64,000 nucleotides of DNA. It comes from Aequoribacter fuscus (lineage in GTDB: Bacteria; Pseudomonadota; Gammaproteobacteria; Pseudomonadales; Halieaceae). The notes under the pieces were generated by a model that was not told the DNA's origin, did not search any database, and saw nothing but the letters and a program-made list of their open reading frames with translations. Where the stretch lies: contig NZ_CP036423.1 of the NCBI RefSeq assembly GCF_009910365.1, forward strand, positions 2,232,001-2,296,000. Reading direction: 5' to 3'. How positions within the stretch are numbered: the stretch's first letter is position 1; the number at the start of each line of letters is the position of its first letter. Shown here in pieces: positions 10,457 to 59,077 of the stretch. The translations under genes were made by a program, and so were the position numbers.

Positions 10457-10646
10457 TTTTGGGCGACATTGACCTAACCAAGGAGCCCCAGCGCGCTCTC
10501 TGAGAATGCTAATGCGCGCTAGACTTGGCGTCAAAAATAGGAATGTTTGATGGCAATATGTTCACAGCACCATCGACAACCGCTACACTCCGACTCAGGC
10601 AGTCGGACTCGTTGCCGTTTCTAACAACACTAACAAAGGAAGCTTT

Positions 10647-11027
10647 ATGTTCAGTCACATCATGGTCGGTGCGAATAACATCGAAGAATCAAAGAAGTTT
10701 TACGATGCCGCTCTAGGAGCTTTGGGCTATGGCCCCGGCGTTGTTGACCCCAAAGGGCGTTGCTTTTACTTCACCGATACCGGTGTATTCGCGATTTCAG
10801 TGCCCATCGACGGCAATCCAGCCTGCCACGGCAACGGCTCGACCATTGGTTTCGCGGTAGAGAGCCCTGAACAAGGTGACGCTTGGCACGCAGCCGGTGT
10901 TGCGAATGGCGGCACGACTTGTGAGGATCCTCCAGGTATCCGCGAAGGTGAAATGGGTAGCATGTACTTGGCTTATATGCGCGATCCCGCCGGCAACAAA
11001 ATCTGCGCCCTAAAACGCATGGGCTAA
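10647..11027 (+). CDS. VOC (glyoxalase/dioxygenase-fold) family protein (126 aa)
   Basis: A single vicinal-oxygen-chelate domain: SHIMVGANNIEESKKFYDAAL at the N-terminus, a central VFAISVPIDG strand, and the C-terminal YLAYMRDPAGNKICAL pattern usual for the Glo_EDI_BRP family. Such proteins of about 125 residues act as dimers in metal-dependent isomerisation, oxygenation or drug binding. The substrate cannot be read from sequence. A GGAAG ribosome site precedes the ATG. A GC-rich stem-loop follows the stop. Confidence 0.85.
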   Translation: MFSHIMVGANNIEESKKFYDAALGALGYGPGVVDPKGRCFYFTDTGVFAISVPIDGNPACHGNGSTIGFAVESPEQGDAWHAAGVANGGTTCEDPPGIREGEMGSMYLAYMRDPAGNKICALKRMG

Positions 11028-11037
11028 GGTTTAATAA

Positions 11038-11060
11038 GCCCCTCGTGATAACCGAGGGGC
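11038..11060. terminator. Stem-loop between VOC and bicupin genes
   Basis: Arms GCCCCTCG (11038-11045) and CGAGGGGC (11053-11060) form a perfect 8-bp stem with a 7-nt loop just after the VOC stop. There is no T tract behind it, so it may be a weak terminator or an mRNA-stabilising hairpin. Confidence 0.45.
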
Positions 11061-11117
11061 ACTCTCCCGTAACCGTCACATTCATCTACTACTGACGATG
11101 AATACTTCACAGCCATT

Positions 11118-11774
11118 ATGAGACTCAACGCCGATTTTGAATCACGGGTCGTCATTTACCCAAAGGATTACCGCTGGACCGCGTCTCCTATGCCCGGTGT
11201 CGATAGAATGATGTTGGACAGAGTAGGCGACGAAGTCGCGCGAGCCACCAGCCTGGTTCGCTACGCCCCCGGTAGTACATTTTCGCCACACACACATGCC
11301 GGTGGTGAAGAGATCTTGGTCCTTGAGGGCACGTTTGGTGACGAGCATGGGCTTTATCCCGCGGGCACTTACATTCGCAACCCAATCGGGAGCTCGCATA
11401 CACCCCACGTGGGGGCTAGAGGCGCACTCATTTTTGTCAAGTTGCATCAGTTCAATCCAGAGGATACCGAGCAATTCACTCTGAACACTCAGACCGAACA
11501 CTGGCGACCAGGACTGGTAGCGGGTTTAAGCGTTATGCCCCTGCACCAGCATCAACACGAAAACGTGGCCCTCGTTCGGTGGGCACCTAACACGCAATTT
11601 CAGCCCCATCGACATTGGGGTGGAGAAGAAATTTACGTGCTAGACGGGGTTTTTCACGATGAGCACGGCGAATACCCCAAGGGGACGTGGATTCGCTCTC
11701 CGCACATGAGCCAGCATACGCCGTTTACAGGCGAAGAGGGAGCTCTGATATACGTAAAGACAGGACATTTGTAG
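11118..11774 (+). CDS. Bicupin protein of ChrR-cupin type (218 aa)
   Basis: Two tandem cupin domains are visible. The first (about residues 30-110) has FSPHTHAGGEEILVLEG and the second (about 130-215) FQPHRHWGGEEIYVLDG, each with the His-x-His-x(4)-Glu metal motif and a downstream His (SSHTP, SQHTP). The DEHG.YP.GT(Y/W)IR loop in each copy is typical of the ChrR cupin-like family, which includes anti-sigma partners and stand-alone metal-binding enzymes. No zinc-binding anti-sigma domain is present here, so a stand-alone enzyme or sensor is more likely. Function unknown. Confidence 0.82.
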   Translation: MRLNADFESRVVIYPKDYRWTASPMPGVDRMMLDRVGDEVARATSLVRYAPGSTFSPHTHAGGEEILVLEGTFGDEHGLYPAGTYIRNPIGSSHTPHVGARGALIFVKLHQFNPEDTEQFTLNTQTEHWRPGLVAGLSVMPLHQHQHENVALVRWAPNTQFQPHRHWGGEEIYVLDGVFHDEHGEYPKGTWIRSPHMSQHTPFTGEEGALIYVKTGHL

Positions 11775-11824
11775 AACGGAAGTAAGCCCATAAACTGAGC
11801 AGCGGACGAATCGATCGCACATCT

Positions 11825-13408
11825 CTACTTACCCATGAGAATCACTTCAGCCGCGTTTTTTCCAGGAAGTCCCGTCACACCTCCGCCGGGATGCGCGCCT
11901 GAACCGCAGTGATAAAGGCCACGAATGGGTCCACGATAGTCGCCGTAATCAAAAACTGGCCTTGCCGCCCACAATTGATCGAGCGTCATCGCACCATGAA
12001 AAATATCACCCCCCGTCAAGCCCAGCTCGCGCTCAAGGTCCAAAGGAGATAACACCCGCATCCCAAGGATCGACGCTTTAAAATTGGGCGCATGCGAAGA
12101 AACGACAGATACGATTGCCTCTACCGCTTTGGGTTTCAGATCATCCCAACTTTGCCCCGCGCTCAGAGTCGGCGCAAACTGCTGACAAAATAACGAGCAC
12201 ACATGCTGACCCGCGGGTGCCAAGGAATCATCTACCGTCGAGGGAATAAGCATTTCCACAATGGGCTTGTTGGCCCAGCCCTGTTGCTTTGCATCCATAA
12301 AGGCGCGATCCATGTACTCTAGCGTCGGAGCCATGATAATGCCCGACTGGTGATGCTCCTGCAGATCAGTGCCCGGCAAGCAGGTGAAATCGGGCAGTTC
12401 ACTCAGTGCCACGTTTAAACGAAACGTACCGGAGCCGTAGCGCGTGGACGCGATTTTTTGAGCAAAATCATTTGGCACATCCTCAGGCGAGATCAGCTGT
12501 TGATAGAGCATCTTGGGCGTCACGTTCGCGGCGACACTGTGAGCTGTTATGAGCTCACCGCTGGTTAGGACAACGCCCATTACGGCCTTATCCTTTATCG
12601 TGATACTTGCAACTTCGGCATCCGTGCGAATTTCCACTCCGTGCTCTGAACAGGCCTGCGCCATCGTTTGGGTGATCGCCCCCATGCCCCCGACGGCATG
12701 ACCCCAGGCGCCCTTTTCGCCATCCAACTCGCCAAATACGTGGTGCAGAAGCACGTAAGCAGAGCCAGGTGTATCGGGGCTGGCGTAATTACCGACTACC
12801 GCATCGAAGCCAAATACGGCCTTGATGTGTTCGTTTTCAAACCAGCCATCCAAAAACGAGCGAGCACTTTTGGTCATCAAGTCGTACAGATCGTTCTGAA
12901 CCTCGAGATCGGCTCTAAGAACATCGCGCACCTGCCACGCCAGTTTCAACAAAGCAGATAAACCGCCAGATATTTTTGGCGGCCTGGTCTCCGCCAATTG
13001 TCGAAGCACGTCGGCCACGGCATCGATTCGTCGGTAATATTCGGGTAAACGTCTAGCATCGTGTTCGGACAGCTGAGCAAAAGCCGCTTGGGTGCGCTCA
13101 AGCCCACCCCCGACTTTTAAATAGTGGTCTTGATCAATGGGCAAAAAGTTAGCAACCGGTCGTTTGATGAATCTCAGCCCACGCTCTTTTAACCCCATGT
13201 CGCGAATGACTTGTGGGTTCAATAAACTGACCGTATAACTTGCCAAGGAATTGCGAAACCCCGGATGAAATTCTTCCGTTACGGCCGCACCACCGACGAC
13301 AGAGCGCCGTTCCAACACGACAACCCTGCGACCCGCTTTCGCCAAGTAAAAAGCGCAGACCAATCCATTGTGGCCACCGCCGATGATTGCCGTATCGTAT
13401 TTGGCCAA
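11825..13408 (-). CDS. CrtI/phytoene-desaturase-like FAD oxidoreductase (527 aa)
   Basis: An N-terminal Rossmann FAD site (IIGGGHNGLVCAFYLAKAG, residues about 8-26) with the ERR acidic end of strand 2, and a C-terminal GLYHCGSGAHPGGGVTGLPG segment match the PYROXD2/CrtI-like branch of the amine-oxidase flavoproteins. Length is typical for that branch. True carotenoid desaturases sit in crt operons, and none is present, so it probably oxidises another hydrophobic or amine substrate. It is convergent with the bicupin gene and lies downstream of a LysR regulator on the same strand, 133 bp away. Confidence 0.85.
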   Translation of the reverse strand: MAKYDTAIIGGGHNGLVCAFYLAKAGRRVVVLERRSVVGGAAVTEEFHPGFRNSLASYTVSLLNPQVIRDMGLKERGLRFIKRPVANFLPIDQDHYLKVGGGLERTQAAFAQLSEHDARRLPEYYRRIDAVADVLRQLAETRPPKISGGLSALLKLAWQVRDVLRADLEVQNDLYDLMTKSARSFLDGWFENEHIKAVFGFDAVVGNYASPDTPGSAYVLLHHVFGELDGEKGAWGHAVGGMGAITQTMAQACSEHGVEIRTDAEVASITIKDKAVMGVVLTSGELITAHSVAANVTPKMLYQQLISPEDVPNDFAQKIASTRYGSGTFRLNVALSELPDFTCLPGTDLQEHHQSGIIMAPTLEYMDRAFMDAKQQGWANKPIVEMLIPSTVDDSLAPAGQHVCSLFCQQFAPTLSAGQSWDDLKPKAVEAIVSVVSSHAPNFKASILGMRVLSPLDLERELGLTGGDIFHGAMTLDQLWAARPVFDYGDYRGPIRGLYHCGSGAHPGGGVTGLPGKNAAEVILMGK

Positions 13409-45265: not shown

Positions 45266-45958
45266 TTAGGGATTTAGCGTGACCTGCTCTGGCCCCATGA
45301 TGTAAGCGTAATCTCTTCGCATAGCCTCGATATCGCGGAAGTAAATCTTGGCGTATTGCACCTCAACATAACCTCGCTCAACCATAATTTGCAGCGTTTT
45401 ATTAATCGTTTGGCGACTCGAGCCCAGCAATCTTGCCAGCTCATCTTGGGACATCGAGATATACGATTGATCCTCAGAATTTATCACACCTTTACTGTGG
45501 GCTAACCGCACCAGAGTCAGGGCTAAACGCTCTTCTAAAGAAGCGTAACCGTTGCCTTCGACCGTTTGCCAGTAGGCGTAGCGCAAACGCTGACACATCC
45601 CCAGCAAGAGCGTTTGCGCAAACTCGGGGTATTGCTTGAGCAATCGATCAAACGCAGATTTGGGCAAAACGCGTACGCGAGTCGCCTGCACCGTTCGCGC
45701 ATGGCTCACTCGGGGCTGACCGTCAATCAAGCCCATCTCACCAAAGCAATCACCGGCCAAAAAGTGGCTGGTCAAAATTTCTTTACCATTCACAGAATAA
45801 TTATACAGGCCAACACCACCACTTAAGACTTGGAACATCTCGGTCGGCGCATCGCCCTGACAGTAAATAGTGGCGCCAGCAGCGTACGACCGCTCGTGGC
45901 TATATTGGTGAAACGCATCGATCGCCGCCTGGGGCAATCCTGCAATAAAATCGTGCAT
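45266..45958 (-). CDS. Crp/Fnr-family transcriptional regulator (230 aa)
   Basis: A cyclic-nucleotide-binding-type sensor domain (about 15-130: YCQGDAPTEMFQVLSGGVGLY, GDCFGEMGLIDGQPRVSHARTVQ) is joined by a dimer helix to a winged helix-turn-helix (ISMSQDELARLLGSSRQTINKTLQIM, about 175-200). There is no N-terminal Cys cluster, so it is not an oxygen-sensing FNR. The ATG at 45958 with AGAGAAG upstream is preferred; the frame is open to 46024. It is divergent from the MATE gene and 2.2 kb from the redox cluster, which it could regulate. Confidence 0.88.
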   Translation of the reverse strand: MHDFIAGLPQAAIDAFHQYSHERSYAAGATIYCQGDAPTEMFQVLSGGVGLYNYSVNGKEILTSHFLAGDCFGEMGLIDGQPRVSHARTVQATRVRVLPKSAFDRLLKQYPEFAQTLLLGMCQRLRYAYWQTVEGNGYASLEERLALTLVRLAHSKGVINSEDQSYISMSQDELARLLGSSRQTINKTLQIMVERGYVEVQYAKIYFRDIEAMRRDYAYIMGPEQVTLNP

Positions 45959-46133
45959 GATTCTTTTCTTCTCTTTCGGTGCTGACCCGAGGATAGAGGA
46001 CCCACGCGCTTCAAGCAACGGCATCGAAGGCAGAACCTCATTTGACCCAATTCGCTGTCGGGTCGATAATCGAGTCCCTAAGACACTTGGGCGCCGTGCT
46101 TATCTATCCGAAAAGCGCACAAAAGGGCATACG

Positions 46134-47588: not shown

Positions 47589-48128
47589 TCAAAACGGATT
47601 CAAGGTATATCCCTGTTGCTGCAAGACCGCGTGGGCTGTCATTGCTGACAATGCTAGCTGCACCTCGGGTAAAAAATCTGTTTTCGCCATGCCATAAAAC
47701 GCCGCACTTTGACCACAGACTATAAATTGCACGCCTTTATCAGCCAGGGCCTTGACCAAGGGGGCGTTGGCATTTTTGTGCATGGTCTTTTCTTCGTAGT
47801 ACGCATCATTACCGACATCATCCCCACCACTGCCATGCACGACGACTACAACTTGGATATTTTCTGGAGCGAAACCTGCATCGACGTGCATGTTTATAAA
47901 ACGAGCGGCAGCTAAGATCGTTTTGTTAATCTCGCCCGGTGCCGCCGCCTTAGCCAAGTCGAAGACCACCTTGAATTCAGTATCTCGAGACACGCGCCAG
48001 TCTTCCTGGACGCGTACAAAGGGGCCGTAACCTTTTATGTAGCCCTCTTTTTGCATATTGGCAGGCAGAGCACCCAAGGCACTGGCTGAGAGGAAGACGA
48101 GTGAAACTATTACCACAAAACGTATCAT
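47589..48128 (-). CDS. Exported DsrE-like sulfur-relay-fold protein (179 aa)
   Basis: The ATG at 48128 (GGGAGT ribosome site) starts a signal peptide (about 1-22). The mature domain has the DsrE/F fold: TEFKVVFDLAKAA, IQVVVVVHGSGGDD and LADKGVQFIVCGQSAAFYGM with a single Cys in the usual C-terminal-half position. Exported DsrE-like proteins are found with redox and sulfur genes; function is unknown. It lies 75 bp after the ankyrin gene on the same strand and may belong to the same operon. Confidence 0.8.
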   Translation of the reverse strand: MIRFVVIVSLVFLSASALGALPANMQKEGYIKGYGPFVRVQEDWRVSRDTEFKVVFDLAKAAAPGEINKTILAAARFINMHVDAGFAPENIQVVVVVHGSGGDDVGNDAYYEEKTMHKNANAPLVKALADKGVQFIVCGQSAAFYGMAKTDFLPEVQLALSAMTAHAVLQQQGYTLNPF

Positions 48129-48203
48129 TTGATTTACTCCCAAAATTCAGCCCCAAGAGTACCTCAGAGCCGAATTCAAATCGATACGTTCGCTTTCTAA
48201 TCG

Positions 48204-50093
48204 TCAGCGCCGCAGAAGATGTTTTAGATCGGCGCGCCCCGATGCCTCGATACGCTCGATTACCGATACCCCAAATTTGTCGCGCCGATTACGATTAGCA
48301 CCCGCATTCACGAGTGAATCCACAACCTCCTTATCGGCGGTGTCAATCGCTAACATCAAGGGCGTTAAGCTTTCTTCATTGCGAATCTCGATGTCACAAG
48401 CGGCTTGTAAAAGTGCTTCGACTGCAGAGGCATTGCTCGCCAAGACCGCAGAATGTAGTGCGGTATTACCCGACTTATTCTGGGCGTTAACCTCGGAAAT
48501 GGGGGCCAAGAGCCGAATGACGTCTACGTTACCTGCCGAGCTAGCCGCGATTAGAGGCGTATCGAGTTCGGTGTCAATCCAATTATCTAAAGCACTCATA
48601 TGCAACAGATCTGAAGGCATATTCCACCCGTATTTCAGGGCGTCAAATAATACGCGCTGTTGTATTTTGGGTACTGAAAACTCAAAAAGTTGGCGTGTCA
48701 ATGCCTCGTTGTTTTGTTGCGCAACACGCTTGAGAGTGGTCCCGTTCACTCGCCGATTACCCGTTTCATTCGCAAGTAAAGCCCCTAATTCATCAAAAAA
48801 CCTTGCCTCCACAGCCAAATATAACAATGCGTTAAACTCATTGTCGTCCATCGATCTCGTATCAAAACCTCTTGCAGTTTGCTCGAATTCCAACGCCCAT
48901 CTGTGTTTAGCAAAGCACCGCAGTAGCTCGACACTCTGGCGAGCAGGCATCGTTTGATCATTAAGTGCCTTTTGCAGAATCCGATAGATCGAATAATTTC
49001 CCGCGCAAGCGGCTCTCATCAGCGGCGTGTAGCCTTCAGGATCGGTGTTCATCAAGTTAGCAGCAGCTACCAATTTCTCAACCACCTCCTCTTTACCTAG
49101 CCAAGCTGCAACATGAATCGGTGGCCATCCTGCGAAAATACCCGAGTCAAGGGGTTCCGAAGACTTCAATATCATGGGGTTATTACGCTGCCTATCAGGC
49201 TTTTTAGTCGACCTTGCTCCGCGACTCAGGGCGTAATCTCGAATGTCATTGCCCCCTGCCATTTCGAGCGGAACTCGGCCAGCATCGTTAGTAATAGACC
49301 AATCGGACGTGTGTTGTAACAAGAGATCAATACTGGCCCTATCTTCTAGCGCCATAGCCAAATGCAAAGGCGTGTTGCCACGATCATCAGCAACATCGGC
49401 CTCCACACCGTTGTGCAAAAGCCATTCCAATGTAGAGTATGTTTTCGCACCGACAGCAACATGTAAACCCGTTTGACCCCAACGATTTCGCCACTGTAAT
49501 CCCCACTCTTCACTCCGCCAAATCTGCAGAGCTCTTAAATTGCCCGCAGCAACTGCGCAAAAAAAAGCGCGCTGTTTTGTGCGGTCAGACCATTGATCCG
49601 TGGGTAACAACACGCCATCGCGCTGGTAATCAATCAGGGCACAGGCATCCCAATCTTCCATATCAAAAAAATCGGATTGGGCGCGTAACAGTTGAGTGTC
49701 AGCCAGTTGATACCCCAACTGTGTCGCTTTCGACAATAACTCGCGGCCACGAGCAACATCTTGGGGGACTTCCACACCGACCAGATACACAACCCCTAAT
49801 CTGTGCATAGCCTTCGCGTACTGTAGCTCCGCCGCTTTCTCAAACTCGATCAAAGGCCTGGCTATTTCCTCTCTGCCATGGCCCTGCAACCAATACAGCG
49901 ATCCGAGGAGATAATGCGACTCTCCGGTACCTTGCGAGGCGTCATGTAAGACCTCTAATACATGAATAGCATCATCGAACCGCTTAGCTCGAATCAATTG
50001 TTTTGCATCCTCTAAGGTGTTTGCACCCGCCGTATGACAAACCATACCCGAGCACACGAGGAGCAATAGGGTTAAACATCTAAGGCGTCCCAT
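48204..50093 (-). CDS. Exported protein with Sel1-like N-terminus and ankyrin repeats (629 aa)
   Basis: A signal peptide (about 1-24) is followed by TPR/Sel1-like helices (about 25-125: AKRFDDAIHVLEVLHDAS, YAKAMHRLGVVYLVG) and two blocks of ankyrin repeats (about 195-290 and 315-629), with clear units such as GNTPLHLAMALEDRASIDLLL, GYTPLMRAACAGN and GNTALHSAVLASNASAVEALL. It is probably a periplasmic scaffold. Its ATG lies inside the 3' end of the flavoprotein gene (14-bp overlap), so the two are coupled, tying it to the redox cluster. Confidence 0.87.
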   Translation of the reverse strand: MGRLRCLTLLLLVCSGMVCHTAGANTLEDAKQLIRAKRFDDAIHVLEVLHDASQGTGESHYLLGSLYWLQGHGREEIARPLIEFEKAAELQYAKAMHRLGVVYLVGVEVPQDVARGRELLSKATQLGYQLADTQLLRAQSDFFDMEDWDACALIDYQRDGVLLPTDQWSDRTKQRAFFCAVAAGNLRALQIWRSEEWGLQWRNRWGQTGLHVAVGAKTYSTLEWLLHNGVEADVADDRGNTPLHLAMALEDRASIDLLLQHTSDWSITNDAGRVPLEMAGGNDIRDYALSRGARSTKKPDRQRNNPMILKSSEPLDSGIFAGWPPIHVAAWLGKEEVVEKLVAAANLMNTDPEGYTPLMRAACAGNYSIYRILQKALNDQTMPARQSVELLRCFAKHRWALEFEQTARGFDTRSMDDNEFNALLYLAVEARFFDELGALLANETGNRRVNGTTLKRVAQQNNEALTRQLFEFSVPKIQQRVLFDALKYGWNMPSDLLHMSALDNWIDTELDTPLIAASSAGNVDVIRLLAPISEVNAQNKSGNTALHSAVLASNASAVEALLQAACDIEIRNEESLTPLMLAIDTADKEVVDSLVNAGANRNRRDKFGVSVIERIEASGRADLKHLLRR

Positions 50094-51396
50094 ATTTTAC
50101 ATCCATAGAAACACCAATTTTTTCGAGCAGTGCATTGGGTAACACACCACCCGCACAAATCAGTACGGCGTCGTTGGCCACTTCCTCTTCGACATTTTCG
50201 GTCTGAAGGGTGACGCTATCGTCCGAAATCTTTATCACATTGGACCCCAACATGACCCGCAAACGACCTGATGCCTCGAGCGCATCCACACGCTTGCGGT
50301 TCTTTAGCTTTGCTCGTGCGAATCCCTCGCCTCGATAAGACAGAGCGACATTCGGTGTAGCCTGAGCTTCAGCTATTTCACATGCAGCCTCAATGGCAGA
50401 ATCACCTCCCCCAACAACCAAAACACGCTGATCAGCGTATTGCTCGGGATCGGCTAGACGGTAAACCACTTTCGACAAATGCTCTCCAGGAACATCGAGC
50501 TTTCTGGGTGTTCCCCGCCGCCCCAACGCTAAAATCACACTTCGAGCGCAAAATTCTGCCTCCGTGGTCTGCACACGAAAATGGGGCGCAGTGCCCTCGA
50601 CACTCACCATTTGAATACCAAATCGAATATCGGGTTTGTGCTCGTTTATGACCCCCGTCCAAAAATCTAATAGAGCTTCTTTTGAGGTCTCTCGAAACTT
50701 CAACTTTCCAACGAGAGGGAGCTCTACGGGCGCCGTCATCACGAGTTTATTCTTCGGGAAATTAGCGACCGTCCCGCCCAAATCTTCAGACTGTTCGATC
50801 ACTGTAGCGGCTAACCCAAGTGCTTTGGCTTGCAGTGCCGCCGCAATGCCCGCAGGACCAGCGCCTATGATTAACAAGTCCCTATCCTCTGTTTTAGGTA
50901 CCTGCTTCAAAAATGAAGCGGCACTGATCACGGCCTGTGAACCTTGCATGATTGCATTCCGGATCAAACCCATCCCACCGAGCTCGCCCGCCACAAAGAC
51001 ACCACTCAAGGTACTTTCAAAATCAGGGGATAACACCGGAATAGACACGCCGCGCTTGGCCGTACCGAACACCAAGTCGATCGCATCAAAGGGACACGCC
51101 GCTTTGCAGGCCCCATGACCAATGCAATTGGCACCGTTGATCAACACCGACTTACCACCAATCAGTCCCAACACGTCACCTTCAGGGCAAGCGTTGACGC
51201 AAGCACCGCATCCCAGACATTTTGAAGGATCGATAATCGGATGTAAGGTCGGGGGCTCGGTCATGTGCGACTGCACCGCATCATCCAAACGACGCTTAGC
51301 CGCTTTTTCTGACCAAGCTCGAACCCACTGATATATCAACAAGAAGACGGCAAAAGGCAGAATGTAAAGTAACAGCAAGGGTTCTAACGTAAACAC
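50080..51396 (-). CDS. Membrane-anchored NAD(P)H flavoprotein with two ferredoxin-type Fe-S motifs (438 aa)
   Basis: One N-terminal membrane helix (about 5-25) leads to a ferredoxin domain with C60-x2-C63-x2-C66-x3-C70-P and C91-x2-H94-x2-C97-x3-C101-P. A thioredoxin-reductase-like module follows, with FAD site IIGAGPAGIAAALQA (about 176-190), NAD(P) site VLVVGGGDSAIEAACEIA (about 325-342) and an end motif AVLICAGGVLPNALLEKIG. No redox CxxC of true thioredoxin reductase is seen, so electrons probably pass from NAD(P)H through FAD to the Fe-S clusters. The His in the second motif replaces the second Cys. It is divergent from the cytochrome operon and is the likely electron entry point. Confidence 0.85.
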   Translation of the reverse strand: MFTLEPLLLLYILPFAVFLLIYQWVRAWSEKAAKRRLDDAVQSHMTEPPTLHPIIDPSKCLGCGACVNACPEGDVLGLIGGKSVLINGANCIGHGACKAACPFDAIDLVFGTAKRGVSIPVLSPDFESTLSGVFVAGELGGMGLIRNAIMQGSQAVISAASFLKQVPKTEDRDLLIIGAGPAGIAAALQAKALGLAATVIEQSEDLGGTVANFPKNKLVMTAPVELPLVGKLKFRETSKEALLDFWTGVINEHKPDIRFGIQMVSVEGTAPHFRVQTTEAEFCARSVILALGRRGTPRKLDVPGEHLSKVVYRLADPEQYADQRVLVVGGGDSAIEAACEIAEAQATPNVALSYRGEGFARAKLKNRKRVDALEASGRLRVMLGSNVIKISDDSVTLQTENVEEEVANDAVLICAGGVLPNALLEKIGVSMDVKYGTP

Positions 51397-51494
51397 CTAA
51401 AACTCATCTCTTCAAAAAGAACTTCTATAAACGACTGACGGAAATATCGACACAGATCTAACGTTCCGAAAACGAACGCATAAGTGAGCCTACC

Positions 51495-51526
51495 TGCGAA
51501 AGATTAATGCTTACTTAAGTTTCGCA
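51495..51526. promoter_or_regulatory. Inverted repeat upstream of the multiheme operon
   Basis: TGCGAAA (51495-51501) and TTTCGCA (51520-51526) form a perfect 7-bp inverted repeat with 18 bp between the arms, in the divergent intergenic region 41 bp before the TPR gene start. It could be an operator for either transcript. It does not match the Crp or Fnr consensus. Confidence 0.4.
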
Positions 51527-51566
51527 CTTTAGGGTGTTCAGTCAGTGTGGATGGAGTACGAAGGTC

Positions 51567-51935
51567 ATGCCCAAATACAAATCTTTATACCTACTTGCCG
51601 TGGGACTTTGTTTATCTCTGAGTGCATCAGGCTCTTTCGCTCAATCAGCACCCTCCGTGGCTGAGTTGGTGACGGGATTAGAGCAGAGACTTCTCGACAA
51701 TCCTAACGACATGCAAGGGTGGATTCTGCTCGGCAAGTCCTATCATCATTTACAAAACTGGAATAAAGCGACCGAGGCGTTTGAGCAAGCCAAAAAGTTG
51801 GGCTATCAGGGATCGGTACCCACTTTACCGAGCACCACACGCCCACCCGTTAAGACCCACCCACTCTTGCGTCGAAAAGAAGAAACGCTTGAACTTCTCC
51901 GCCCTCTGACGAAAAAATTTGCGAACGGGCCCTAG
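51567..51935 (+). CDS. Exported TPR protein, CcmI/NrfG-like (122 aa)
   Basis: The ATG at 51567 (GAAGGTC upstream) starts a signal peptide ending near SFAQ. The mature part holds one clear TPR with its capping helix: VAELVTGLEQRLLDNPNDMQGWILLGKSYHHLQNWNKATEAFEQAKKLG, which is the pattern of the C-terminal TPR of CcmI/CcmH and NrfG, proteins that hold apocytochrome during heme attachment. As first gene of the multiheme operon it may help mature the cytochromes. The C-terminal 40 residues are basic. Confidence 0.8.
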   Translation: MPKYKSLYLLAVGLCLSLSASGSFAQSAPSVAELVTGLEQRLLDNPNDMQGWILLGKSYHHLQNWNKATEAFEQAKKLGYQGSVPTLPSTTRPPVKTHPLLRRKEETLELLRPLTKKFANGP

Positions 51936-51938
51936 CCG

Positions 51939-52832
51939 ATGAATAGCATCGCGAATATCAATCACAACACGCAGCTTGAACGCCCTGTGACACGCCCAAG
52001 CAAGACGACATTTTGGACAGCGGCCGTCGCTATTTCATGTGTGGTTGCGATCGTCGCTGGGTGGCAAATTCGTGATGAATACCTGATCAATGCGGAGCGA
52101 GGTATAGGCTATGCATTGGGTATTATCGGCGGCAGCTTCATGCTAGCACTTCTTATTTACCCCATTCGAAAACGCTACCCAGTGGCCCCGGCCTTTGTTC
52201 TGTCGACACCCACGTGGTTTAAATTGCATATGTTATTGGGGCTCATTGGGCCGATTTTGATCTTGTATCACTCCAATTTCGGCCTCGGTTCAACCAACGC
52301 TAACATCGCCTTATTTTGTATGCTGTTAATGGTTACTAGCGGGCTAATTGGGCGTTTCATCTATTCCAAAATCCATATGGGCCTATACGGCTCGAAGGCG
52401 CATTTGGCTTCTTTGATAAAAGACCAAGACCAATTAAGCGAAGCATTATTAGATTTAAGTCTTGCAATTAATAGTCGCGAATTGGGAAGTTCAATAAAGG
52501 AACACCTCGAAAGCGTAAGGGCCACGCTAGTACAACAAAACGTCTCTAATAATCCCTTAGTGGTTGCGACTCGCAATGCTCAGCTAACAAGATCACAAAG
52601 AGTGCTTACCAAAAAAATCAAGTTGTTAAGACGTGACCAGGCTGGTGAGATCGAAACAAGCCTTGAGTTAGTTCAAAATTACGTATCGGAGTTTTTTTAC
52701 ACATCGCGCAAGATAAACGGGCTGGCGTTTTACGACCGACTATTCTCGATTTGGCACATGCTTCATTTGCCCATTTTTTTCATGCTCATAATAGCCGGGT
52801 TTGTGCATGTTTATGCCGTTCATACGTATTAG
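51939..52832 (+). CDS. Inner-membrane protein with paired histidines, putative diheme cytochrome b (297 aa)
   Basis: Four or five membrane helices: about 25-42, 55-75, 93-112, 120-140 and 270-295. Two helices carry His pairs 14 residues apart, H97/H111 (KLHMLLG...LYHSNF) and H276/H290 (LHLPIFFM...GFVHVY), the spacing used to bind two b-hemes across a membrane. A soluble helical region (about 150-265) with basic and acidic residues separates the last helix. No CXXCH. It resembles ferric-reductase or cytochrome b561-like quinol or flavoprotein partners. It starts 3 bp after the TPR gene and overlaps the next gene by 20 bp. Confidence 0.7.
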   Translation: MNSIANINHNTQLERPVTRPSKTTFWTAAVAISCVVAIVAGWQIRDEYLINAERGIGYALGIIGGSFMLALLIYPIRKRYPVAPAFVLSTPTWFKLHMLLGLIGPILILYHSNFGLGSTNANIALFCMLLMVTSGLIGRFIYSKIHMGLYGSKAHLASLIKDQDQLSEALLDLSLAINSRELGSSIKEHLESVRATLVQQNVSNNPLVVATRNAQLTRSQRVLTKKIKLLRRDQAGEIETSLELVQNYVSEFFYTSRKINGLAFYDRLFSIWHMLHLPIFFMLIIAGFVHVYAVHTY

Positions 52833-54393
52833 CGGTTTACTGATGATGATATTAATCAGCCAAACTACCCTAGCACAAAGTGAAGCCGGCGCTAATGGCG
52901 TCAATCTAAAAACCTTGATCATGCCTGGCGAACTGATACAAGGCCATGAAAAATACGAAGCCGATTGTGCCAACTGCCATTCTGATCAAGGCAAGTCCAA
53001 GCAATCGAGCTTGTGCTTAGAGTGCCATGAAGACATCAAGACCGATGTCGCGGAAAATAAGGGCTTTCATGGCCTAAGTACCGATGTCGATGCTAAAGAA
53101 TGCTTTCAATGCCACACAGATCACAAAGGTCGTGACTTCGAGCCTGTCGTCTTAGACCGCAATCATTTTAATCACGACAACACAGATTTCGCGCTCGTTG
53201 GGCAACATAAGTTTTCGCATTGTTCAGAATGTCACCAGCAGAACACCGCCTTTCGCGAGGCCCCAGGCGACTGCAAAGGTTGCCATGAAAATGACAGCCC
53301 CCACGCGAGCAATGTGACTCAAGAGTGTGATCAGTGTCATGAGCCCACAGGTTGGAAAGCGGCAGAGTTTGATCATTCGTCAACCCAGTTTCTACTCGAC
53401 AATAAGCACGCTGATGTGGCCTGTGCAAGTTGTCATATTAACTCTGAATTCGCGGAAATTACGGTCGAATGCGCGGGCTGTCACGCGCTGGATGATGTCC
53501 ATTTGGGCATTAACGGCAGAGAATGTAACGATTGCCATACCTCAAAATCTTGGGACACAACCACCTTCGATCACGATATTGACACCGACTTCAAACTGAA
53601 AGGTCAACATGCCGACACGAAATGCGAATCGTGCCACATAAAGCCAGCGTTCGAAGTAGAGCTAAGTAGCGAATGCGAAAGCTGCCATCAAAAGGCGGAC
53701 ATCCACCTAGGTGCCTATGGCAACAAATGCTCAGACTGCCACACAGAGAACCGCTGGCAGAATGCGAGGTTCGATCACAACAAAACACTATTCAGCCTGA
53801 GAGGCGAGCACGCTCAGATTGACTGCGAGCAATGTCATCAGGTCTGGCGTGATCGCATCAGCGACAACACACGGTGCATCGACTGCCATCGCAAAGATGA
53901 CCCCCACCTTGGAGGTTTAGGTGGCGAATGCCAAGATTGTCACACCAACGAGTCGTGGTCATCGCAAGTTCGCTTTAATCATGATTTCACGGCTATGCCG
54001 CTCGTTGGAATGCATGCCTTGGTCACCTGTGACGAATGCCACAGTCAGGGCCATTATCAGGGCGTTTCTAATGAATGCAGTGATTGCCACGGTCGAGATG
54101 ACCCGCACAACGGATCGTTAGGTGGCCAGTGTGAATCTTGTCACAACCCTAACGACTGGGGCTTGTGGGTTTTTGATCACAGCACGCAAACCGATTTCGA
54201 ACTTACGGGCGCGCACGAAGAGCTCTCCTGCAGTCAATGTCACACCGAACAGTTCACAAAAACCCAAGACCTAGGCACCGAATGCGCTGATTGCCATTTA
54301 GATGACGATGCTCATCGCCGCCGCTTTGGTCTTGATTGTGCCCGCTGTCACGTAACCGACAGCTTCAGCAACATACAGATACAACCGCAATGA
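52813..54393 (+). CDS. Exported multiheme cytochrome c, 21 CXXCH motifs (526 aa)
   Basis: A signal peptide (about 1-22) is followed by 21 CXXCH motifs, the first at about residue 52 and the last near the C-terminus, one heme per 24 residues. Modules look like C-x2-CH, FDH, LxGxH and DDxHxG, so each heme has nearby His residues for bis-His ligation. This matches c3/c7-like multiheme electron carriers. There is no lipobox. It overlaps the cytochrome b-like gene by 20 bp and its stop overlaps the next start as ATGA. Likely periplasmic, carrying electrons from the membrane to the outer membrane. Start choice among TTG/ATG codons 52801-52813 is based on the signal peptide. Confidence 0.9.
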   Translation: MPFIRISGLLMMILISQTTLAQSEAGANGVNLKTLIMPGELIQGHEKYEADCANCHSDQGKSKQSSLCLECHEDIKTDVAENKGFHGLSTDVDAKECFQCHTDHKGRDFEPVVLDRNHFNHDNTDFALVGQHKFSHCSECHQQNTAFREAPGDCKGCHENDSPHASNVTQECDQCHEPTGWKAAEFDHSSTQFLLDNKHADVACASCHINSEFAEITVECAGCHALDDVHLGINGRECNDCHTSKSWDTTTFDHDIDTDFKLKGQHADTKCESCHIKPAFEVELSSECESCHQKADIHLGAYGNKCSDCHTENRWQNARFDHNKTLFSLRGEHAQIDCEQCHQVWRDRISDNTRCIDCHRKDDPHLGGLGGECQDCHTNESWSSQVRFNHDFTAMPLVGMHALVTCDECHSQGHYQGVSNECSDCHGRDDPHNGSLGGQCESCHNPNDWGLWVFDHSTQTDFELTGAHEELSCSQCHTEQFTKTQDLGTECADCHLDDDAHRRRFGLDCARCHVTDSFSNIQIQPQ

Positions 54394-56966
54394 CTACCAT
54401 AACCACCCGAGCAAGATCGTTCTTCTGGGCTAGCAAATACGTTCTGATAGCAGCGGTGTTTACCATTGCGAGCACCCTTGGGATTGCGGTCTCCGCGCAA
54501 GACGTTGACTTACAAACTTTTGATCACAGCACGACGGGCTTTCCTCTCGATGGCCCGCACCAAGGTGTCGAATGCGATAGTTGTCACACGAGGGGCATTT
54601 TCCAAGGCACACCAAGAACGTGCGTCCAATGCCACGGAAGTAACGCACAGAGCGCGTCCAGTATCATCCCTCTGACACACATCAAGGTCACCAACGATTG
54701 TGAAAGTTGCCACACTGGCGAGCACTGGGACACTGTAACGCGCATTGATCACAGTGCCGTCGTTGGCAGCTGTCAGTCGTGTCACAACGGTACGACAGCG
54801 CAAGGCAAGTCCACGCCGCATCCAAAATCGTCGAACAACTGTGTGGACTGTCACAATACCAACGCCTGGAGTGACGCCCAGTTCGACCATTCATCAATCA
54901 GTGGCAATTGCGCTTCTTGCCACAATGGGGTCGATGCCACAGGCAAGAATACCACGCACATCAATACCACCAATAGTTGCGAGGATTGCCACACCACCTC
55001 AAGTTTTCAATCGATTACTCGGGTAGATCACAATGCTGTTTTGGGCACTTGTAGCTCTTGCCATAACGGCTCAATCGCGCAAGGCAAAAACAGCAATCAC
55101 ATACCCAGCGCAGACACTTGCGACGACTGCCATAATACCAATGATTGGAGTGGAGCCACCTTTGACCACAGCAATACCACTGGTAGCTGTTCATCGTGCC
55201 ACAACGGTGTTAACGCAACGGGTAAAAACACGACCCACATCAACAGTACTAACAGCTGCGAAGATTGCCACTCTACAGCAAGTTTCCAAGCAGTTACCAG
55301 AGTTGATCACAACTCTGTACTGGGCACCTGCAGCTCCTGCCACAATGGCACTTTGGCCGAGGGCAAATCAGCCAACCACCTCCCCACCAGCAACTCGTGT
55401 GAAGATTGCCATACAACCAATTCTTGGGCTGATGCGACCTTCGATCACGCCAACATCAGCGGTAATTGTTCTTCTTGCCATAACGGTGTAGACGCCACTG
55501 GCAAAAATACCACGCACATTAACACCACAAATGTCTGCGAAGATTGTCACACGACCTCGACATTCCAAAATGTGACGCGGGTTGATCACAACTCTGTACT
55601 GGGCACCTGTAGCTCCTGTCACAATGGATCTATTGCTGAGGGAAAAACCGCCACGCACATACAAAGTTCGGACACTTGCGACGACTGCCACAACACCAAC
55701 TCGTGGAGCGATGCCCAGTTCGATCACAGTGCAGTAACCGGCAACTGTTCGTCATGTCACAATGGTGTGAACGCCACCGGCAAAAATACCACGCACATTA
55801 ACACCACGAATGTCTGCGAAGATTGTCACACGACCTCGACATTCCAAAATGTGACGCGGGTTGATCACAACTCTGTACTGGGCACCTGCAGCTCCTGCCA
55901 CAATGGATCTATTGCTGAGGGAAAAACCGCCACGCACATACAAAGTTCGGACACTTGCGACGACTGCCACAACACCAACTCGTGGAGCGATGCCCAGTTC
56001 GATCACAGTGCAGTAACCGGCAACTGTTCGTCATGTCACAATGGTGTGAACGCCACCGGCAAAAATACCACGCACATTAACACCACAAATGTCTGCGAAG
56101 ATTGTCACACGACCTCGACATTCCAAAATGTGACGCGGGTTGATCACAACTCTGTACTGGGCACCTGTAGCTCCTGTCACAATGGCACAATCGCAGAGGG
56201 CAAGTCGGCAAACCACATCGCCAGCAGTAATACCTGTGAAGACTGCCACAACACTAACTCTTGGGATGATGCCAAGTTCGACCACGCTTCCGTCACTGGC
56301 AATTGCTCCTCATGTCACAACGGCGTCGATGCAACGGGTAAAAACGCCACCCATATTAATACCACCAACGTTTGTGAGGATTGTCATACAACATCGAGCT
56401 TCCAGAATGTCATGCGAGTCGACCACAATGCCGTGCTGGGAACCTGTAGCTCTTGCCACAATGGCACTACTGCCGAGGGTAAGCCAGCAACACATATCCA
56501 AAGTGGTGACACCTGCGACGACTGCCACGTACCGAATTCGTGGAGTGATGTTCGGATGGATCATTCATCCATTACTGGTAGCTGTTCATCGTGCCATAAC
56601 GGCACAACCGCAACAGGCAAGAACGCAACACACGTGCAAACTGCTGCTGATTGCGATAGCTGTCACTCAACCTTGGCATGGACTCCCGCTAACTTTGACC
56701 ACAGCGCGGTCAGTGGTTCCTGCTCGACCTGCCACAATGGCGTGACGGCCGAGGGCAAATCCGCTAATCACGTGCTGTCTACGAATCAGTGTGATGACTG
56801 CCACCGCACCAGTAGTTGGAGTCGAGTCAATTTTGATCATGACGCGGTACTCGGATCGTGCTCTTCGTGTCATACGCGTCCACGTAATGATCATCCAAAT
56901 ACGTCACAGGAGTGCAACGTTTGCCACACCACCAAAGATTGGGATGACGGTGTGGATGACGACTAA
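54390..56966 (+). CDS. Exported giant multiheme cytochrome c, 35 CXXCH motifs (858 aa)
   Basis: After a signal peptide (about 1-36), 35 CXXCH motifs run from residue 62 to near the end. From about residue 110 the protein is a tandem repeat of a 46-47-residue module: CSSCHNG, about 10 residues, a His in GKxxxH, six or seven residues, C(E/D)DCH, about 11 residues, DH. Each module thus supplies two hemes and two extra histidines, enough for bis-His ligation throughout. The sequence is rich in Ser, Thr, Asn and Asp with very few hydrophobics. At DNA level two 279-bp units are nearly identical. The start is coupled to the preceding cytochrome gene by ATGA. It is probably a long electron wire, periplasmic or surface exposed. 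Confidence 0.92.
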   Translation: MTTITTRARSFFWASKYVLIAAVFTIASTLGIAVSAQDVDLQTFDHSTTGFPLDGPHQGVECDSCHTRGIFQGTPRTCVQCHGSNAQSASSIIPLTHIKVTNDCESCHTGEHWDTVTRIDHSAVVGSCQSCHNGTTAQGKSTPHPKSSNNCVDCHNTNAWSDAQFDHSSISGNCASCHNGVDATGKNTTHINTTNSCEDCHTTSSFQSITRVDHNAVLGTCSSCHNGSIAQGKNSNHIPSADTCDDCHNTNDWSGATFDHSNTTGSCSSCHNGVNATGKNTTHINSTNSCEDCHSTASFQAVTRVDHNSVLGTCSSCHNGTLAEGKSANHLPTSNSCEDCHTTNSWADATFDHANISGNCSSCHNGVDATGKNTTHINTTNVCEDCHTTSTFQNVTRVDHNSVLGTCSSCHNGSIAEGKTATHIQSSDTCDDCHNTNSWSDAQFDHSAVTGNCSSCHNGVNATGKNTTHINTTNVCEDCHTTSTFQNVTRVDHNSVLGTCSSCHNGSIAEGKTATHIQSSDTCDDCHNTNSWSDAQFDHSAVTGNCSSCHNGVNATGKNTTHINTTNVCEDCHTTSTFQNVTRVDHNSVLGTCSSCHNGTIAEGKSANHIASSNTCEDCHNTNSWDDAKFDHASVTGNCSSCHNGVDATGKNATHINTTNVCEDCHTTSSFQNVMRVDHNAVLGTCSSCHNGTTAEGKPATHIQSGDTCDDCHVPNSWSDVRMDHSSITGSCSSCHNGTTATGKNATHVQTAADCDSCHSTLAWTPANFDHSAVSGSCSTCHNGVTAEGKSANHVLSTNQCDDCHRTSSWSRVNFDHDAVLGSCSSCHTRPRNDHPNTSQECNVCHTTKDWDDGVDDD
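55500..56184 (+). repeat. Recent 279-bp tandem duplication inside the 35-heme gene
   Basis: Units 55500-55778 and 55779-56057 differ, by my comparison, at only three bases (for example CCACAAATG vs CCACGAATG), and a third partial copy continues to about 56184. Each unit is 93 codons, two 46-47-residue modules, four hemes, and stays in frame. Confidence 0.93.
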
Positions 56967-56986
56967 TTACAACGATGGGGAAAACA

Positions 56987-59077
56987 ATGAAATCTAAATT
57001 TAGCCAAGGTCTGTGCCTGTTGATGCTGCTATGCCTACCCAGCTTAAGCTGGGCAAGGATTGTAGAAAAAACCAAACTCGATGAGGCAGGAGACGACTAC
57101 CGCATCGAAATCACGTTCGCGACCCCAATGCGATTTTCGAACTTGTCAGACCGGGGTTTTGCACGATCATTTGAGATCCAGTTGCGGCCCGACACTCTGT
57201 TATCAGGTTTGACCATTGACGATTTGGGCGGGCGATACTCGGTCAGTTGGAACCGTAGCCTATGGTCGCCCATCAGCGAGATCACCTATGATGGCGATGA
57301 TCCGGAATTTCCCTATATCACGCTGAGATTCAAAGACCAGGTGAAACTGTCGGTCCGAAACTCCGCAGATTTTATGACTGTAATTGTTGATATCGATGCG
57401 AGCGAAATTACCCGACCGGCTAAAGCACCAAAACTGACCTCGGCTGACCTTCTCAAAGATCTCAGTAGTGACGATGTAAAAATCCAAAACACCATTGACG
57501 AGGCCAGAGCCGCTATTTTTGCGAAAGACTACAACACCGCTATTCGTTTATTCCGCACCTTAAAAGATACAACGACAGGCGTGACACAACGCCGTGCGCA
57601 TGAGCTGTTGGCCATTACTCGCGAATTAAACCAGCAATTAGCACAAGCTAAAGGTGAATACGAAACTTTCATTGATCTTTATGGCGATACTGAGGATGTC
57701 GCGCGTGTGCGCCAACGCTTGGCTGTGCTAGTGACCTCCGACATGAAAGCCAAATCCATTGGCCAGGCAGAGGAGGCTCTCGCGTGGGACTCTGAATTTT
57801 ACGGCAGCTTCGGGCAACGTTACTATCGTGATGACAATTACCCTGAGGCGGGTGGCTCAACCATCCTACGTGACCAGCTCACCTCCGACTTAGATTTCGT
57901 GCACCGCGTAAGCAACGGAATTTGGGATATTAAAACCCAGTTCATCGGGTCCTATCGCAAAGACTTCGAGGACGACGCCGACTCCGAATTTCGACCAAAC
58001 GTTGGGTCTGTGGAAATCGAGAATTCCAACTGGGGCGCTATCGCTAAACTTGGTCGTCAATCGCGAAATACCGATGGTATTCTCGGACGTTTTGATGGCT
58101 TATACGCCAGCTACGAAGTCTCAACTGATGTTATCGTAAATGCCTCATTTGGCTACCCAGTGGATATCAGCCGTCGCGATACGATCAATACCGATGTCGA
58201 ATTCTATGGTACGAGTGTCGACTTCCTGAATGTCGCAGATAACTGGAACCTCAGCGCCTACTACATTAAGCAAACCAACTTTAGTCTCACCGACCGCGAA
58301 GCACTTGGCGCCGAAGCACGTTACTCAACCAGAGCTTCATCAATCTATGCGACCTTCGACTACGACATCTACTTCGAAGAACTGAACTCAGCACTGTTTC
58401 TGGGGAACTGGAGTTTGAGTGAAGCAACTCGTTTGAACGTCTCTATTGACTATCGCTACAGCCCAACACTGACCAAGCTGAACGCAATTCAGGGGCAGGG
58501 GGTGACAAGTTTTGATGCCCTGTTCCCGCTTTACAGCGACGATGAGCTCAAACAACTGGCCTTAGACCGAAGTGCTCGCTCGACCACAATGACAACCAGT
58601 CTTACACATACCCTTAATGAAAAATGGCAAGTCATTGGGGACGTGACGGCCACGGAATTTGGTGCTACCGAGACTTCGGCTGGCGTTGAAGGCACCGACG
58701 CGACGGGGACAGACTTGTATTATTCGGTGCAGTTCGTAGGCACCAACATCTTGCAAGTAAACGATGTGGCGATCTGGGGCCTGCGCATGAGCGATACAGA
58801 CAGTGCTAGCACCTACACCCTAACGGGCAATTGGCGCTTTTCGCCCAACCGCAAGTTCAAAATCAATCCACGCATTCGTGTTGACTACCGAAGTAATAAT
58901 AACGACAGCGGTGACCGCTGGGTTACCCGTCCTTCGGTCCGTTTAGATTATAAGATCAACAAACAAGCACGTATCGAGTTCGAAGCGGGATACGAGTGGT
59001 ATGACGAAACTTACGCCGTAGGTGCTTACAAAAATGAAACCAGCTTCGTTACCTTGGGGTATCGCATCGACTTTTAA
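56987..59077 (+). CDS. Outer-membrane beta-barrel protein with helical N-domain (696 aa)
   Basis: ATG at 56987 with GGGGAAAA upstream gives a signal peptide (about 1-23). Next is a beta domain (about 25-140), a helical TPR-like stretch (about 155-255: IQNTIDEARAAIFAKDYNTAIRLFRTLK) and a region of alternating amphipathic strands (about 270-696) with aromatic girdles, ending in YRIDF, the C-terminal Phe recognised by the BAM machinery. It is 20 bp after the 35-heme gene. In known porin-cytochrome conduits a barrel of similar size holds a multiheme cytochrome across the outer membrane; this protein would fill that role. No similarity to MtrB-type CXXC N-terminus is seen. Confidence 0.82.
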   Translation: MKSKFSQGLCLLMLLCLPSLSWARIVEKTKLDEAGDDYRIEITFATPMRFSNLSDRGFARSFEIQLRPDTLLSGLTIDDLGGRYSVSWNRSLWSPISEITYDGDDPEFPYITLRFKDQVKLSVRNSADFMTVIVDIDASEITRPAKAPKLTSADLLKDLSSDDVKIQNTIDEARAAIFAKDYNTAIRLFRTLKDTTTGVTQRRAHELLAITRELNQQLAQAKGEYETFIDLYGDTEDVARVRQRLAVLVTSDMKAKSIGQAEEALAWDSEFYGSFGQRYYRDDNYPEAGGSTILRDQLTSDLDFVHRVSNGIWDIKTQFIGSYRKDFEDDADSEFRPNVGSVEIENSNWGAIAKLGRQSRNTDGILGRFDGLYASYEVSTDVIVNASFGYPVDISRRDTINTDVEFYGTSVDFLNVADNWNLSAYYIKQTNFSLTDREALGAEARYSTRASSIYATFDYDIYFEELNSALFLGNWSLSEATRLNVSIDYRYSPTLTKLNAIQGQGVTSFDALFPLYSDDELKQLALDRSARSTTMTTSLTHTLNEKWQVIGDVTATEFGATETSAGVEGTDATGTDLYYSVQFVGTNILQVNDVAIWGLRMSDTDSASTYTLTGNWRFSPNRKFKINPRIRVDYRSNNNDSGDRWVTRPSVRLDYKINKQARIEFEAGYEWYDETYAVGAYKNETSFVTLGYRIDF

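Follow-up and report, generated by a model that had tools for sequence, protein, structure and literature searches.

PCC3 is a porin-cytochrome complex described by He et al. in 2017 (PMC5566968) and published as a system of four parts: an outer-membrane barrel, two giant cytochromes, of which one is periplasmic and one extracellular, and an inner-membrane protein (IMP). The median number of heme sites is 34 for one cytochrome and 21 for the other, with a median of 26 residues per heme; values range from 22 to 39 residues per heme, and a repeat-built, heme-dense architecture is the rule (PMC5566968). In the same paper, the IMP is a protein of about 300 residues with two WX3HX13H motifs, an SGXXG motif and five transmembrane (TM) helices, the motifs lying on TM3, TM4 and TM5. 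The published model takes electrons inward to quinone (PMC5566968). PCC3 clusters are listed as putative iron-oxidation genes without demonstrated function; those of ES-1 are Slit_0867-0870 and Slit_1446-1449 (PMC8788666). The current study concerns a cluster at positions 48204-59077 of a 64,000-nucleotide stretch of Aequoribacter fuscus DNA (contig NZ_CP036423.1, positions 2,232,001 to 2,296,000; hereafter the window), from a genome of 3.1 Mb in a single contig. The cluster fits PCC3, and a flavoprotein encoded beside its IMP accompanies nearly every PCC3 IMP, and hardly occurs without one, in the samples searched. We propose a PCC3-type conduit in which this constant flavoprotein partner carries electrons from NAD(P)H outward, a reading to which we assign a probability of roughly 0.57.

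The cluster consists of two divergent gene sets facing each other across a short gap. The minus strand encodes an anchored FAD/Fe-S flavoprotein and an exported Sel1/ankyrin protein, and the plus strand a CcmI/CycH-like TPR protein, the IMP, exported cytochromes with 21 and 35 CXXCH motifs and an outer-membrane barrel. Compared with PCC3 by its published description, the cluster fits as a member in IMP signature, heme numbers, residues per heme and barrel. The IMP of 297 residues carries WX3HX13H at 93-111 and 272-290 and SGXXG at 134, and the cytochromes have 25.2 (21-heme) and 25.0 (35-heme) residues per heme over the raw open reading frames (ORFs). The core, that is the barrel, the two giant cytochromes, the IMP motifs and the value of about 25 residues per heme, shows no difference from PCC3; what is added here to the four published parts is the flavoprotein, often an ankyrin protein and sometimes a CcmI-like TPR protein. 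An earlier reading of the window made from its sequence only (the sequence-only reading) had described an unmatched new type with unusually heme-dense, repeat-built cytochromes. Neither part of that description survives the comparison, since the cluster fits published PCC3 and such cytochromes are usual there (PMC5566968). Its proposal of a flavoprotein entry to a likely trans-envelope electron conduit is supported, though such an entry is not special to this cluster. The MtrCAB and MtoAB systems resemble the cluster in combining a barrel with periplasmic and (in Mtr) surface multiheme cytochromes, but have 10 hemes against the 21 and 35 found here and a different inner-membrane entry. No match to the MtrB/PioB barrel family (PF11854) was found in the whole genome, and the DmsE/MtrA model TIGR03508 gave 170.6 bits on the 35-heme protein, under its cut-off of 192.2; an Mtr/Mto system was therefore rejected. 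Links to phototrophy and to Calvin-cycle autotrophy were likewise rejected, as the genome has no match to a reaction centre or to the RuBisCO large chain.

An eight-row IMP profile, searched against 369 genomes of the class with E 1e-20 chosen as threshold, matched 42 genomes spread over 36 genera. Stretches of up to about 10 kb either side of the IMP were fetched for 54 loci, comprising 46 IMP places other than the window's own, four strong relatives from the family and order, three titled loci (one of them Paraglaciecola sp. MB-3u-78) and the window. A flavoprotein homologue lies within the stretch in 45 of these loci and is divergent from the IMP in 44; the two are at most 1.7 kb apart in 42 of the 45 and about 4.6, 6.3 and 8 kb apart in the remaining three. 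A co-directional arrangement of flavoprotein and IMP is seen in L088. The whole layout of the window is repeated in L016 and, as far as the contig end, in L017. This layout is found again in many genomes, so the association of the genes is not a matter of chance; they are conserved neighbours over the 54 loci, where the sequence-only reading had named rare adjacency as the outcome that would speak against it.

The association extends to whole genomes. At E 1e-60, the threshold chosen for a flavoprotein profile on the same 369 genomes, 45 genomes were matched, namely 41 of the 42 IMP-positive genomes and four others (Fisher p 1.2e-48 for co-occurrence, kinship ignored). The IMP profile matched twice in five genomes (G128, G131, G196, G394 and G411), and each of these has two flavoproteins as well. 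A phylum sample of 398 genomes, which partly overlaps the class sample, contains six genomes with a strong IMP match (E < 1e-80); these are also the six that have the flavoprotein (E < 1e-190), and one of them (G589) lies outside the class; four weaker IMP and two weaker flavoprotein matches in this sample are other proteins. The flavoprotein was also found in seven of eight further hand-picked genomes, again with none in G285. Most of the nine loci that have no flavoprotein in the stretch are accounted for by its position: in L075, L091 and L096, where the sequence upstream of the IMP is shorter than 1.5 kb, as well as in L018, L064, L068, L077 and L081, it is found elsewhere in the genome or on another contig. 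It lies about 11 kb downstream in L068; in the genome of L064 it is at a contig end, next to a 12-heme ORF and a barrel. The ninth locus, L093, belongs to G285. Conversely, a flavoprotein without an IMP match stands at a contig end in G272, together with an ankyrin gene, a PCC3 barrel match and an 11-heme ORF, and on short contigs in G193, with 3- and 4-heme ORFs, and in G395; the profile match in G234 is a different, 777-residue protein. Pairwise distances of the flavoprotein, IMP and first cytochrome correlate at r 0.69-0.77 over 39 loci, a figure that is uncorrected for relatedness and was not used as evidence. The two flavoprotein matches of G129, a one-contig genome, are halves of one interrupted gene (L048, about 10407-12000), split into two ORFs with a TGA inside the match, which is either a decayed gene or a sequencing error; L048 also contains ORFs with 21, 23 and 69 CXXCH motifs.

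The remaining partners are less constant. In 30 of 45 loci the flavoprotein gene is followed directly by an ankyrin gene in the same orientation, and an ankyrin match occurs anywhere in the stretch in 44 of 54, while a TPR match occurs in 14 of 54; since both repeat types are common, these associations are weaker. The TPR protein of the window matched TPR_CcmH_CycH at E 3.1e-10 and 40.5 bits, slightly below the cut-off of 42, and its relative in L016 also has a CycH Ig-like domain (E 5.8e-26). No other family recurs in more than five of the 54 loci. A family that, read by eye from the sequence, resembles the heme-exporter ATPase CcmA is present near PCC3 in four (L066, L069, L072 and L079).

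The system is patchy in distribution and perhaps exchanged horizontally. No IMP was found in the four congeners examined. At E 0.001, a search of the family and order gave a match in 11 of 97 genomes, counting the window's own genome, and in six the match was weak; the weak matches lie mostly beside 3- to 7-heme ORFs, another module type. A plasmid-borne system was rejected, as 72,556 records gave one weak plasmid IMP match (Emticicia) and no flavoprotein at E 1e-60. IMP-multiheme modules that have no PCC3 barrel are also described in PMC5566968, and comparable neighbours occur in all five weak-match loci L143-L147, in each of which a flavoprotein-profile match of 825-892 residues, an IMP-profile match and a decaheme ORF adjoin. 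The large flavoprotein of L144 contains FAD/NAD(P), cNMP-binding and Fer4 domains. These modules differ from PCC3 in having a decaheme instead of a 21-heme protein, a larger fused flavoprotein and no PCC3-type barrel match in the stretches.

The flavoprotein has one N-terminal hydrophobic segment, a ferredoxin-type region at 52-106 and a YpdA/TrxR-like FAD-NAD(P) domain at about 173-435 (Pfam/NCBIfam). Two ferredoxin-type clusters are recognisable, CxxCxxCxxxCP and CxxHxxCxxxCP. In the second of these, His94 replaces the second Cys in all 45 located copies, which may reflect unusual ligation or a cluster of the 3Fe-4S type; at the matching place of the first cluster, Ser or Thr occurs in 4 of 36 aligned flavoproteins. 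This alignment, which holds 36 of the 45 located copies after exclusion of fragments, near-duplicates and overlapping ORFs, shows no variation in GxGPxG (the FAD motif), GGGxxA (the NAD(P) motif), Arg355 or His94. The only cysteines after the ferredoxin region are 283, 339 and 414, and the redox-active CxxC of thioredoxin reductase is absent from the catalytic domain. Solved relatives are Bdr/YpdA and also ferredoxin-NADP reductases; an assignment to the YpdA bacillithiol disulfide reductase equivalog was rejected (141.9 bits against an NCBIfam cut-off of 339.9). TrxR-like ferredoxin-NADP reductases and YpdA/Bdr belong to the same fold family as the catalytic domain, but here the same polypeptide also contains a membrane anchor and a ferredoxin region with two clusters. 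Since the C-terminal side of the anchor is more positive in 39 of 39 copies tested, the redox part is likely to be placed in the cytoplasm. The remaining six of the 45 copies did not match the first-cluster pattern, the second Cys being Ser in four and Thr in one, and the sixth copy being cut.

The four motif histidines of the IMP are invariant in 46 of 46 aligned rows, which represent 46 of the 54 loci after exclusion of fragments, near-duplicates and overlapping ORFs. The predicted b-heme pairs are H97/H276 and H111/H290, and the diheme-type membrane protein named by the sequence-only reading is in this sense upheld, as a b-type diheme IMP predicted from two WX3HX13H motifs that probably binds heme b. 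Judged by mean loop charge, H97/H276 lie towards the cytoplasm and H111/H290 towards the periplasm, with the insert 146-262 on the inside; we would guess that the flavoprotein docks on this insert. The structural model (pLDDT 86.6) has helices at all five published TM places, and a hydropathy scan at a threshold of 1.6 marked four helices and missed the one with residues 93-111. Cytochrome b561 is among the fold-search matches of the IMP, aligned to the helical insert 157-262 and not to the heme helices.

Of the 48 loci in which the first cytochrome downstream of the IMP is complete, 40 have 21 CXXCH motifs in it, six have 24 and two have 18, in every case a multiple of three, and the second has between 15 and 67 across 35 loci; the other loci of the 54 are cut by a contig end or have no such gene. 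The 21-CXXCH cytochrome of the window is built of triheme repeats and matches Cytochrome_C7, with no solved relative found by phmmer, and both cytochromes have N-terminal signal-like segments. Because the number in the first cytochrome is near-fixed in multiples of three and that in the second is variable, our own reading is that the first may act as a near-fixed ruler of triheme units across the periplasm and the second as a surface extension of free length. At a wire length of about 8 angstrom per heme, 21 hemes correspond to about 170 angstrom, near the width of the periplasm. The 35-heme gene contains a 279-bp tandem array at 54921-56550 (5.8 copies, 78% matches), each unit of which encodes 93 residues and four hemes, and this array suggests that the gene grows and shrinks by recombination. 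Its product is presumed to be a surface wire in contact with the barrel. Very large cytochrome ORFs occur in L067 (from 12022; 81 CXXCH in 2,493 residues, cut by the stretch end) and in L074 (from 2970; 67 CXXCH in 1,687 residues). An 18-CXXCH ORF precedes the 21-CXXCH ORF in L076, and in L087 the flavoprotein shares its strand with a barrel and a 41-CXXCH ORF.

The last protein of the cluster has no confident Pfam family. Its model has 22 predicted strands from residue 272 on (pLDDT 84.4, pTM 0.58), and the 50 Foldseek rows shown consist almost entirely of outer-membrane barrels and ushers, which bears out, at the level of a model, the outer-membrane barrel assigned to this position earlier.

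From these observations we infer the following scheme, including its NAD(P)H donor, its direction, the locations and contacts of the proteins and the TPR and ankyrin roles. The anchored flavoprotein would oxidise cytoplasmic NAD(P)H via FAD, and the electrons would pass through its two Fe-S clusters to the IMP, whose two b hemes would conduct them through the inner membrane. The 21-heme cytochrome would span the periplasm and meet the 35-heme cytochrome through the barrel, and the 35-heme cytochrome could then donate electrons to extracellular acceptors. The CcmI-like TPR protein may aid cytochrome maturation and the ankyrin protein may aid assembly. Outward flow is favoured because a constant NAD(P)H-type flavoprotein stands beside a transmembrane diheme protein. 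Flow in this direction from NAD(P)H is downhill in both redox and membrane potential, and the reverse, to NAD(P)+, is uphill without a coupling pump. No ion-pump gene able to drive reverse flow recurs near the 54 loci, which argues against the reverse. Outward flow is also supported by ES-1, which lowers both of its PCC3 clusters on Fe(II) (PMC8788666), and by the lack of a RuBisCO large chain in this genome. Taken on its own, outward flow has in our estimate a chance of a little over one half. The broader claim, that PCC3 across Proteobacteria is a quinone-independent outward conduit fuelled by NAD(P)H, i.e. a trans-envelope NAD(P)H:extracellular-acceptor oxidoreductase and not an iron-oxidase pathway, is tentative, and we hold it at somewhat less than even odds.

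Several points weigh against outward flow from NAD(P)H. NAD(P)H binding by the flavoprotein rests on motifs, and the IMP-positive genome G285 has no flavoprotein that could be found. The IMP has no Pfam family match at E 0.01, and its fold searches gave unrelated helical proteins. The accessible PCC3 literature contains no biochemistry or demonstrated function. PCC3 is common in iron oxidisers, among them the iron-oxidising Gallionellaceae (PMC10734462), and frequent in the Leptothrix group (PMC13386937), and in Sideroxydans CL21 the IMP of PCC3 copy 2 rises with iron-oxidising ability (PMC12442390). These occurrences favour the published model of an inward conduit (PMC5566968), in which cytochromes at the cell surface take electrons from Fe(II), Mn(II) or a solid donor, the IMP passes them to the quinone pool and the flavoprotein is a side branch. 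However, quinone reduction needs no near-constant flavoprotein of the NAD(P)H type, the fall of the ES-1 clusters on Fe(II) is contrary to such a role, and the genome examined here is without the RuBisCO large chain and without MtrB/PioB, so that we regard inward flow as unlikely.

Less probable still is a function outside the conduit, in which the TrxR-like flavoprotein and the CcmI-like TPR protein supply reductant for the synthesis of the giant cytochromes. The YpdA/TrxR-like domain, the CcmI/CycH-like TPR protein beside the IMP in some loci and the CcmA-like ABC ORFs seen by eye would suit this role, but the catalytic domain has no CxxC pair and the protein has two Fe-S clusters instead, and the TPR protein is far less regular than the near-constant flavoprotein. 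A periplasmic redox buffer, with the 56 hemes as an electron capacitor and surface contact secondary, would explain the high heme number, and a capacitor role has been raised for PCC3 in PMC10734462; yet the set includes a dedicated outer-membrane barrel, and the near-fixed first and variable second cytochrome suit a span with a free extension better, which makes the buffer quite improbable. We consider it most improbable of all that the system is a trans-envelope NAD(P)H oxidase reducing O2 at the surface to extracellular superoxide. The IMP shares its two HX13H motifs with the transmembrane domains of ferric reductases and NADPH oxidases (PMC5566968), but it has no Pfam match to such a domain and no fold support, and O2 reduction needs no long wires. 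Outward transfer from NAD(P)H to extracellular acceptors is therefore the reading we prefer.

PCC3 as a family is already published; what is new is the near-constant flavoprotein partner, which was not found in the main texts of the PCC3 papers covered. The available text of PMC5566968 contains no mention of flavo, FAD, pyridine, ferredoxin, thioredoxin or ankyrin and one of NADPH. The accessible main texts of PMC13386937, PMC12016527 and PMC10734462 mention neither ankyrin nor flavoprotein, those of PMC12442390 and PMC8788666 mention none of ankyrin, flavoprotein, thioredoxin, FAD and NADPH, and that of the survey PMC11475568 mentions none of PCC3, ankyrin and flavo. Among the matches listed, no paper ties PCC3 or porin-cytochrome systems to ankyrin, flavoprotein or NADPH. 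These negatives apply to main texts, and the flavoprotein may be drawn or listed in figures or supplements. As a clear PCC3 member the cluster is ordinary, and its interest lies in the near-constant partner, which gives PCC3 a concrete electron entry, shifts the likely entry and direction, speaks against the direction assumed by default and turns the matter into a testable question. If the proposal is true, many bacteria that are not counted as electroactive would have a direct route, independent of quinone, for discharging NAD(P)H electrons outside the cell.

Table 1. Features of the PCC3-type cluster, in window coordinates.
Feature	Position	Strand	Basis
Sel1/ankyrin-repeat protein, N-terminal signal-like segment	48204..50093	-	Pfam; export inferred
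Flavoprotein, membrane-anchored	50080..51396	-	Pfam/NCBIfam, motifs, solved relatives
Divergent intergenic region, presumed shared promoter region	51397..51566	.	Gene layout
Short CcmI/CycH-like TPR protein	51567..51935	+	TPR_CcmH_CycH match
PCC3-type inner-membrane protein (IMP), two predicted b hemes	51939..52832	+	Motifs, invariant His, model
21-CXXCH cytochrome, exported, presumed periplasmic wire	52813..54393	+	CXXCH count and spacing; Cytochrome_C7
35-CXXCH cytochrome, exported, presumed extracellular wire	54390..56966	+	CXXCH count; Pfam
Outer-membrane protein: N-terminal beta and helical-repeat region, then predicted 22-strand barrel	56975..59077	+	Model, Foldseek

The seven genes sit where the sequence-only reading had placed them (Table 1), and a recount of the CXXCH motifs confirmed both 21 and 35. 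In three genes the likely ATG is later than the start of the raw ORF: that of the TPR gene is at 51567 (raw ORF from 51534), that of the 21-heme gene at 52813 or 52807 and that of the 35-heme gene at 54390. The TPR and IMP genes are separated by 3 bp, the IMP and 21-heme genes overlap, the 21-heme and 35-heme genes overlap as ATGA at 54390, and on the other strand the flavoprotein gene shares 14 bp with the ankyrin gene. This tight packing is real, as had been claimed, and co-expression of the packed genes, which the claim took as given, is a fair inference from it. Promoter-like and terminator-like sites at the locus are no commoner than in shuffled sequence, and a scan for FNR and CRP sites there gave no convincing site, the best matches having 3 (FNR) and 4 (CRP) mismatches. 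Next after the ankyrin gene, in the same orientation, comes the gene of a DsrE/DsrF-like exported protein (47589-48143), and a CRP/FNR-type regulator (45266-46024) is encoded about 2 kb beyond the cluster; both were rejected as members of the conserved set, as over the 54 loci each profile matched the window's own copy only. A CcmF match in the genome makes c-type cytochrome maturation likely in this organism.

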